64,000 bases of DNA, taken from Acidimicrobiales bacterium. GTDB lineage: Bacteria; Actinomycetota; Acidimicrobiia; Acidimicrobiales; SKKL01. The notes under the pieces are model-generated. The model saw only the letters and a list, made by a program, of their open reading frames with translations, made no database searches and was not told the DNA's origin. Both the position numbers and the translations under genes were made by a program. Of this stretch, positions 50,542-52,825 are shown piece by piece. Within the stretch, counting starts at the first letter, position 1. Every line of letters begins with the position of its first letter. The stretch is from contig JAXHLR010000002.1 of NCBI GenBank assembly GCA_034521975.1, forward strand, positions 1 to 64,000. The letters run 5' to 3'.

Positions 50542-51144
50542 GTGGGAGCGAGGAGACCAGAACGACTCGGGCTGTTCGGGGGGACCTTCGATCCGCCGCA
50601 CGTCGGTCACCTCGTGGCGGCGGTCAACGCCCGCCACGAGGCCCGTCTCGACCGGGTGCTGCTGGTCGTGGCCAACGAACCATGGCAGAAGTCGGGGTCG
50701 CGCGACCTCACCCCGGCCGCTGATCGCCTGGCCATGGTGGCCGCCGCGGTCGACGGTGCCGACGGGTTGGACGTGAGCGACCTCGAGATTCGTCGAGGTG
50801 GCCCCTCCTACACTGCCGACACCCTACAGGAGCTCCACGACGAGGATCCGACCCGCGATCTGTTCCTCATCCTCGGCAGCGATGCCGCAGTCGGGTTGCC
50901 CACCTGGGAGGGTGTCGACACGGTGAGGAAGCTGGCAAGGGTCGTGCTGGTCGAGCGGCCCGGCACCGAGGGCGGGCGGCCGCCGGAGGGCTTCGGGTAC
51001 GAGGTGGTGTCGGTGCCCCTGCTCGATGTCTCCAGCACCGAGGTCCGTTCCCGCGTGGCCGACGGGCGGCCACTCGACTACCTGCTCACGCCGGCGGTCA
51101 TCGACTGCATCCGCAGTCGCGGCCTCTACGGAGCCCCCCGGTGA
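50542..51144 (+). CDS. nadD: Nicotinate-nucleotide adenylyltransferase
   Basis: A 200-residue enzyme that adenylates NaMN in NAD synthesis. The nucleotidyltransferase signature GLFGGTFDPPHVGHLVAA (about 9-26) is intact, including the GxxxPxxxH core, and SSTEVRSRVADGRPLDYL marks the second motif. It begins the nadD-LytR_C-rsfS group and overlaps the next gene (GTGA). Confidence 0.93.
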   Translation: MGARRPERLGLFGGTFDPPHVGHLVAAVNARHEARLDRVLLVVANEPWQKSGSRDLTPAADRLAMVAAAVDGADGLDVSDLEIRRGGPSYTADTLQELHDEDPTRDLFLILGSDAAVGLPTWEGVDTVRKLARVVLVERPGTEGGRPPEGFGYEVVSVPLLDVSSTEVRSRVADGRPLDYLLTPAVIDCIRSRGLYGAPR

Positions 51145-52301
51145 CCCGGCGGCGCCGCGCCCACCTGGTGGTCTATGGCGTGTCCTTCGCGATCGCGGTG
51201 ATCGCGATCCCCGTGCTGTCGATCGTGGGGGTCCAGGCCCTGCTCGACAGTCGCGACGGCGAGATCATCGACCCGGTGCTCGATCCGACCCTCCCCGGCT
51301 ACCAGGCACTCGTGTCGCCCTCGCCGACGCTGGCGGTCCTGCACCTCGACCCCGACGGTTCGCTGGTGGGCACGGCGATGCTGTCCCTCGCCGGGGAGGA
51401 CGACGACGATGCCGGCGGTTCGGTCCTGCTCATGGCGCCCTCCACGGTCGCGTCGGTGCCCGATCTGGGCGATCTCACCCTCGAGTACATCCAGAACATC
51501 AACGGCACGGAGTCCACCTGGTCGCTCATGGAGTGGGTCCTGGGGATCGGCATCGACGAGGTGACCGAGATCGACCACGACACCTGGGCCGACGCGGTGG
51601 AACCGCTCGGGGGCCTCACCATCACCAACCCCGACGCGCTGAGCACTGCGGACGGCGCGCTGACCTTCGAGGCCGGTGAGGTGACCCTGGCCCCTGAGGA
51701 GGTCGGGCCGTACCTGTCGGTGTTGGCGCCCGGTGAAAGCCCGCTCAACCGCGTGCTGCGCCAGGAGCTGGTGTGGAACGCCTGGTTACAGGCGCTCGCA
51801 GACCAGCCCGACGCGCCACGCTTCGCCGGTGAGCAGGACCGGGGACTGGCCCGCTTCGCCCCGACGGTCGCAGCCGGACCCCATCGGGTCGAGACGCTGC
51901 CGGTGACCACCGAGGGTGTCGTCCCCGAGGCCGGAGAGCCGTTGCTGGTCCACCCCGACGACGACGCCATCGCCGAGCTCATCCCCGAGCTCGTGCCGTT
52001 CCCCGCCGGCGCCCGACCGGGGGACCGGCCCCTCGTGCGGGTCCTCGACGGATCGGCCCGACCCGAGCTGCTCCCGGTCGTGGTGCGTGAGGTGGCCGTC
52101 GCCGGCGGTCAGGTGGTCCTGATCGGCAACACCGACGAGTTCGGCGTGGCCGAGACCGAGATCCGCTACGACGATCCCGAGCTCGACGCGTTCGCGCGAT
52201 CGGTGGTCGAGACGCTCGGGGTGGGTAACGTGGTGGAGGTCGACCACATCGACGACAACGCCGAGCTCGTGATCGTGCTCGGCGAGGACTACACGGGCTG
52301 A
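51141..52301 (+). CDS. LytR_C-domain envelope protein
   Basis: A 386-residue protein with an N-terminal membrane helix (about 8-32), a middle domain with weak similarity to the LCP/LytR fold (LAVLHLDPDGSLVGTAMLSL, TEIDHDTWADAVEPLGGLTI) and a C-terminal LytR_C domain (VREVAVAGGQVVLIGNTDEF, VVEVDHIDDNAELVIVLGED). The Arg-rich catalytic motif of LCP phosphotransferases is not obvious, so activity is doubtful. It lies between nadD and rsfS, a common actinobacterial order. Confidence 0.75.
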   Translation: MTRRRRAHLVVYGVSFAIAVIAIPVLSIVGVQALLDSRDGEIIDPVLDPTLPGYQALVSPSPTLAVLHLDPDGSLVGTAMLSLAGEDDDDAGGSVLLMAPSTVASVPDLGDLTLEYIQNINGTESTWSLMEWVLGIGIDEVTEIDHDTWADAVEPLGGLTITNPDALSTADGALTFEAGEVTLAPEEVGPYLSVLAPGESPLNRVLRQELVWNAWLQALADQPDAPRFAGEQDRGLARFAPTVAAGPHRVETLPVTTEGVVPEAGEPLLVHPDDDAIAELIPELVPFPAGARPGDRPLVRVLDGSARPELLPVVVREVAVAGGQVVLIGNTDEFGVAETEIRYDDPELDAFARSVVETLGVGNVVEVDHIDDNAELVIVLGEDYTG

Positions 52302-52321
52302 AGGCCCCGGAAGGACACGAC

Positions 52322-52702
52322 ATCGACGCGCACACCACCTCCCTCCCCGACACCGCCGAGTGGGCACTGCTCGCGGCCAGAGCGGCCGATCAGAAGGGAG
52401 GCATCGACACGGTGGTGCTCGACGTCGGCGAGATCTTCGCCATCACCGAGGCGTTCGTCATCTCCAGCGCCGGCAACTCGAGGTTGGTCAAGGCCATCGT
52501 CGACGAGGTCGAGCTCGCCGTGGTCCAGGCTGGTGGCCCCAAGCCGCGCCGGGTCGAGGGGCTCGACGGCCTCGAGTGGGTGCTGATCGACTACGGCGAC
52601 TTCGTGGTCCACGTCTTCAGCGACGAGACCCGCGAGTTCTACGAACTCGAACGCCTATGGTCCGACGTGCCCCGCCTGGCCTGGGCCCCCGCCGACGCCT
52701 GA
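52322..52702 (+). CDS. rsfS: Ribosomal silencing factor RsfS, apparent ATC start
   Basis: A 126-residue RsfS, which blocks 50S-30S joining by binding L14. Core segments are DTVVLDVGEIFAITEAFVIS, VEGLDGLEWVLIDYGDFVVH and the C-terminal ERLWSD. The family needs about 25 residues before VVLDV, but no ATG, GTG or TTG occurs in frame there. An ATC at 52322 lies 6 nt after a strong GGAAGGA (52309-52315) and gives the expected length. A CTG at 52298 overlapping the upstream stop is the other choice; the first standard start is GTG 52412, which would delete the N-terminus. Confidence 0.8.
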   Translation: MDAHTTSLPDTAEWALLAARAADQKGGIDTVVLDVGEIFAITEAFVISSAGNSRLVKAIVDEVELAVVQAGGPKPRRVEGLDGLEWVLIDYGDFVVHVFSDETREFYELERLWSDVPRLAWAPADA

Positions 52703-52752
52703 CAACGGCCGGGACGCCGAAACGGGCGCGAGCTGGTCGCACACCCGGAGAG

Positions 52753-52825
52753 TGGAGCTAAAGGGAATCGAACCCTTGACCTCTTCCATGCCATGGAAGC
52801 GCTCTACCAACTGAGCTATAGCCCC
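52753..52825 (-). tRNA. tRNA-Ala(GGC)
   Basis: Minus-strand cloverleaf: acceptor GGGGCTA/TAGCTCC with the alanine-specific G3:U70 wobble pair, D-arm TAGCTCAGTTGGTAGAGC, anticodon arm CTTCC-ATGGCAT-GGAAG (anticodon GGC), T-loop TTCGATT and discriminator A. CCA is not encoded, unlike the tRNA-Gly and tRNA-Pro. Confidence 0.95.

Follow-up and report, generated by a model that had tools for sequence, protein, structure and literature searches.

The 64,000-nucleotide stretch of Acidimicrobiales DNA analysed here (referred to as the window) contains a gene for the ribosome-silencing factor RsfS, and the locus raises a simple question: at which codon does translation of this gene begin? The frame lies on the forward strand and is uninterrupted from 52229 to its stop codon at 52700-52702. 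The first ATG, GTG or TTG in it is the GTG at 52412-52414, downstream of the codons for the first helix. The original prediction that the frame has no usable ATG, GTG or TTG was borne out, as none precedes this GTG. Three solutions had been offered: an AUC start behind a Shine-Dalgarno (SD) sequence, a start at a CTG overlapping the stop codon of the upstream gene, or a sequencing error.

The rsfS frame and its proposed start codon

When read from the ATC at 52322-52324, the coding sequence (52322-52702, forward strand) specifies 126 amino acids plus the stop codon. The translated product matched PF02410 (E=1.8e-27, 95.8 bits, cut-off 21.6; domain from about 52373) and the NCBIfam model TIGR00090 (91.9 bits, cut-off 56.9). 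By these curated models, both above cut-off, it is identified as a member of the RsfS / Iojap family. The closest solved structure by sequence was RsfS of M. tuberculosis (4wcw, E=1.2e-21, with the alignment beginning at residue 11). An AlphaFold model built from 20 sequences (pLDDT 90.6) showed an alpha/beta fold including an N-terminal helix.

The gene is the last of a closely packed group (50542-52702, forward strand) in a genome of 3.3 Mb assembled in ten contigs. The group begins with nadD (50542-51144), which served as a control gene in the comparisons described below. It is followed by a gene with LytR_cpsA_psr and LytR_C domains (51141-52301), which overlaps nadD at 51141-51144 and ends 20 nt before the ATC. 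Promoter and terminator patterns were sought around the rsfS locus and none was found. A tRNA-Ala (GGC) gene is located on the reverse strand at 52752-52825, between rsfS and leuS.

The SD-like sequence GGAAGGA (52309-52315, forward strand) ends 6 nt before the ATC, and the coordinates given for this arrangement in the original prediction were confirmed. The site had been described as perfect; with a computed pairing energy of about -6.0 kcal/mol, compared with -8 to -12 kcal/mol in many relatives, it should rather be called moderate. A generic anti-SD sequence was assumed in this calculation because the 3' end of 16S rRNA, sought in the window genome by exact pattern, was not found. At the AUC, the initiator tRNA would pair with a mismatch in the third position and would initiate inefficiently.

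The start region in the same family

The collection contained four genomes of the window's family, three of which carry rsfS. In the fourth, G001, which belongs to the window's genus, the contig ends inside the upstream gene (L343, C57:12955 of 12955) and rsfS is missing, so this genome says nothing on the start codon. The other two carriers, G003 (loci L003/L032; also deposited as JAENWR010000060.1, an Acidimicrobiia MAG) and G002 (L004), belong to a genus other than that of the window. Comparison of the codon in relatives had been proposed as a check, and in both genomes the site was occupied by ATC, not ATG, 7 nt after GAGAGG and without any canonical start. The ATC is thus found at the same place in 3/3 family genomes with an assembled rsfS, two of the three being multi-contig assemblies. 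Among the 17 codons compared (-4 to +12) it was the only one invariant in the three family members, which exceeds what chance would give, and in each of them a conserved Trp codon follows exactly 13 codons after the ATC. G002 is a single contig of 3.7 Mb, in which the TAG of the upstream gene lies in the rsfS frame four codons before the ATC; therefore, in G002 the start cannot be located further upstream.

Taken with the SD sequence at 52309-52315, which would set the start, these comparisons argue for translation of RsfS from the AUC at 52322, a reading to which we assign a probability of roughly 0.8. The first of the three proposed solutions was thus supported by the conservation of the ATC. 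Three other explanations of the start region were weighed against it.

The first is that a shorter RsfS of 96 amino acids, lacking helix 1, is made from the internal GTG at 52412. This GTG is the first canonical in-frame start and the only rsfS start that a gene caller limited to ATG, GTG and TTG could call. An SD-like sequence, AAGGGAGG, which had not been noted before, is located at 52394-52401, 10 nt upstream of it. However, initiation at this codon would delete helix 1 with part of strand 1 and shorten the Pfam domain by 13 residues. Moreover, AAGGGAGG encodes Lys-Gly-Gly of RsfS, and L003 has the weaker AAGGGCGG instead. The sequence upstream of the GTG is also under constraint at the protein level. 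In pairwise comparisons of codons 13-26 (Trp to Gly-Gly) among the three family members the ratios of synonymous to nonsynonymous differences were 6:2, 6:2 and 8:2, and the linker preceding these codons varied freely. Judged by these ratios, the region between the Trp and the internal GTG is evolving as protein, and it is predicted to form a confident helix. The N-terminal helix had been placed at 52340-52412 in the original prediction. It is indeed encoded there, but the predicted helix lies slightly inside that span, at 52352-52393 (model residues 11-24 of the AlphaFold model), upstream of any canonical start. On this evidence we consider it improbable that the short polypeptide is the RsfS of this bacterium; a minor short form started at the GTG is possible.

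The second is a start at the CTG at 52298-52300, which overlaps the TGA of the upstream gene (52299-52301). CTG was the codon seen most often in other lineages whose rsfS has no canonical start (see below). Within the family, however, the CTG is not conserved: L003 has no counterpart, and in L004 the frame is closed by the in-frame TAG. A start at this position would also add eight unconserved residues, and we regard it as very unlikely. Least likely of all is that an assembly or sequencing error turned an ATG into ATC, since the identical codon occurs at the identical place in both of the other rsfS-carrying genomes of the family, of which one is a single contig, and the error would need to have been repeated in three independent assemblies.

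Start codons of rsfS beyond the family

To read start codons in other genomes, rsfS was scored as forced to use a non-canonical start when no ATG, GTG or TTG occurred in the interval running from the upstream stop (no more than 45 codons away) to the fifth codon before the helix anchor. ATG, GTG or TTG codons within the last approximately four codons before the anchor, inside the helix (e.g. in L197, L210, L231, L236, L243 and L244), were not counted. The infC gene, known to start at a non-canonical codon, provided a control. Of the 30 infC loci read in the order, which included four of the window's family, all had ATA or ATC at a constant position, usually preceded by an SD-like sequence, and 22/30 had no canonical codon within 45 codons. 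The method of reading starts thus recovers the known non-canonical case, and AUA and AUC starts seem to be functional in these bacteria and, for infC, the normal case. The infC loci of the window's family (L191, L192, L193 = G000:C2:306890-310096, and L194) all read GAGGAGTGA-GTG-GCR-ATA-GCT (4/4); comparison with the 30/30 ATA or ATC of the order indicates that the ATA is the real start despite the GTG two codons before it.

Among the nearest distinct loci, a set from which duplicates had been removed and in which 60 loci (L131-L190) had been picked by hand, mostly for short open frames, rsfS was forced in 15/167 and nadD of the same loci in 2/124. When the margin before the anchor was omitted, the numbers were 12/147 nearest loci for rsfS (including three duplicates) and 1/136 for nadD. 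The 15 forced cases comprised the three members of the window's family with ATC and three members of one genus with the arrangement TGA-GGAGACACC-CTG; most of the others had CTG. In most relatives within the order an ATG, GTG or TTG that could serve as the rsfS start is present, so the AUC is not a requirement of this gene.

A search of the phylum detected rsfS in 282/296 genomes. It was forced in 10/30 of the loci with the best HMM hits (L195-L224) and in 11/40 loci picked by hand to favour short open frames and to range over many families (L225-L264). In the controls, which came from the 30 rpmA loci ranked highest in the phylum draw, no forced gene was encountered (rpmA 0/29, obgE 0/17, rplU 0/19). 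Nor was hpf, which encodes another ribosome-silencing factor, forced in any of 29 loci (30 were drawn; L371, in which the match begins at profile position 9, was excluded). Fisher tests gave p=0.0097 for rsfS versus nadD and p=3e-6 for the 10/30 tool-picked phylum loci versus 0/65 controls, values that overstate independence because f83 (six loci) and f24 (four loci) contribute repeatedly.

The common pattern in forced rsfS genes was a strong SD sequence followed by a weak codon. CTG was dominant, being found in all six f83 loci and also in f79 and f119. ATA or ATT occurred in f81, f88, f94 and f102, and f68 perhaps uses GTC. Three f81 members had GTG, ATA and ATA behind a similar SD sequence. 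In L225 and L243 (f81) and in L231 and L239 (f80) an SD-like sequence was present, TCG or GCG occupied the expected start, and there was no near-cognate codon. Four further forced loci (L014, L152, L207, L212) had no clear candidate start.

A shortage of ATG was considered as a peculiarity of rsfS and rejected. At loci with a single canonical candidate the counts were GTG 36, ATG 34 and TTG 14 for rsfS, and GTG 40, ATG 21 and TTG 7 for nadD, which is GTG-rich as well. For this reason only the forced cases were used as evidence. Isolated observations were also made in the control genes. In L072 and L021 the part of the nadD frame from the upstream stop to the conserved motif holds no canonical start, and ATC is present upstream. 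In L265, which lies outside the 0/19 rplU count, rplU has CTG at the expected start behind AAGGGGGAG.

When E. coli and 22 named records were read, rsfS was seen to begin with TTG in E. coli, Klebsiella, Proteus, Aeromonas and Listeria; these starts were annotated except in Proteus and Aeromonas, where they were read from context. ATG was found in, among others, Pseudomonas, B. subtilis, Limosilactobacillus, Paenibacillus, Parabacteroides and Tsukamurella. Because many of these records show ATG, weak rsfS starts are not universal.

Possible control of RsfS by initiation stringency

According to published work, initiation factor IF3 hastens the loss of 30S complexes that are non-canonical and keeps the 50S subunit from joining prematurely (PMC8266586), and RsfS, as known for S. 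aureus, binds uL14 on the 50S subunit and blocks subunit joining (PMC7125091). Because IF3 destabilises non-canonical 30S complexes and RsfS blocks joining, the synthesis of RsfS from an AUC should be sensitive to both factors. Complexes formed at the AUC would be weak and rejected by IF3, and the output of RsfS would stay low, tracking the stringency of initiation. If IF3 were short relative to 30S subunits, the output would rise. If RsfS slowed the joining of 50S subunits, the output would fall, as mismatched 30S complexes would dissociate before a 50S subunit arrived. RsfS would thereby limit its own synthesis, as IF3 does. The original prediction had suggested that RsfS is controlled through the fidelity of initiation factors. 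In view of the ATA or ATC starts of infC in this order and of the repression of Streptomyces sigR by IF3 (see below), control of RsfS through IF3 or subunit joining is in our opinion plausible, but the proposal is tentative.

Published observations in E. coli bear on it from two sides. In cells without RimM both IF3 and RsfS were raised (PMC13246957). The regulatory model would predict such a rise, but other causes are possible, and 'start codon' is not mentioned in that study. On the other hand, translation of E. coli rsfS was unchanged by polyamines, compounds said to favour weak or minor starts (PMC10917681), and this counts against the regulatory reading.

An explanation without control is the main rival and deserves serious consideration, even if we would not call it probable. 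Little RsfS might be needed, and ribosomes that have terminated on the upstream gene might re-initiate on any near-cognate codon near an SD sequence; the codon would then drift among weak ones. The AUC start holds in this reading too, which rejects no more than its regulatory role. The short distance between the upstream stop and the ATC (20 nt in the window, 12-22 nt in the relatives) is in accord with this, as are the variation of the codon across lineages, e.g. GTG, ATA and ATA among the three f81 members, and the rsfS leader, which was less structured than shuffled sequences (z 2.1, 0.6, 1.4). Drift alone, however, should often give back ATG, GTG or TTG, and nadD, which belongs to this gene run as well, is seldom forced (2/124). 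The strong SD sequences and the CTG conserved in all six f83 members also look selected.

If weak starts do serve control, rsfS and infC might be viewed together. Both would commonly be given poorly initiating starts, at least across deep Actinomycetota, and would form an initiation-stringency regulon sensing the balance of free subunits; this broader suggestion is speculative, and we consider it rather unlikely. Each factor would limit its own synthesis, since mismatched 30S complexes would survive only if a 50S subunit joined quickly. The codon would turn over (AUC, CUG, AUA, AUU, GUG, UUG, perhaps GUC or non-cognate triplets) and its weakness would be kept.

Few bacterial non-canonical starts have, to our knowledge, a known regulatory role (infC, sigR and pcnB). 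In E. coli pcnB an AUU start limits expression; like the start of rsfS it is a non-canonical AUH codon, but the products are unrelated. Another parallel is infC, which is autoregulated through an AUU, AUC or AUA start. Both genes encode a factor that separates ribosomal subunits and have an AUH start behind an SD sequence. They differ in that IF3 acts on the 30S subunit and takes part in the selection of the start codon, whereas RsfS acts on the 50S subunit (uL14) and has no known role in codon reading. A study in Streptomyces describes repression by IF3, in vivo, of the GTC start of sigR, and an ATC start for infC (PMC5472188). Like rsfS, sigR is an Actinomycetota gene with a non-canonical start that is missed by start-codon prediction; unlike the AUC proposed for rsfS from sequence, its GTC was proven experimentally, and the product is a sigma factor (PMC5472188). 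For rsfS itself a UUG start has been published in E. coli (PMC10917681). It is a weak start of the same gene, but UUG is a canonical minor start and AUC is not.

Apart from this UUG, the open-access literature searched yielded no description of rsfS starting at a non-canonical codon, subscription papers being mostly outside the search. Non-canonical starts of the IF3 type are known; as far as the open-access literature shows, rsfS as a recurrent member of this group is new. If the proposal is true, the group gains in rsfS a gene that is widespread and encodes, as infC does, a protein separating the subunits; the metering of ribosome silencing by cells could then be described by a model that is simple and testable. 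Where annotation accepts only ATG, GTG and TTG, many Actinomycetota would be left with a truncated RsfS or with none annotated. As a separate observation, the rsfS matches in G024, G089, G094, G109, G154, G257 and G349 each contained one reported in-frame stop codon.
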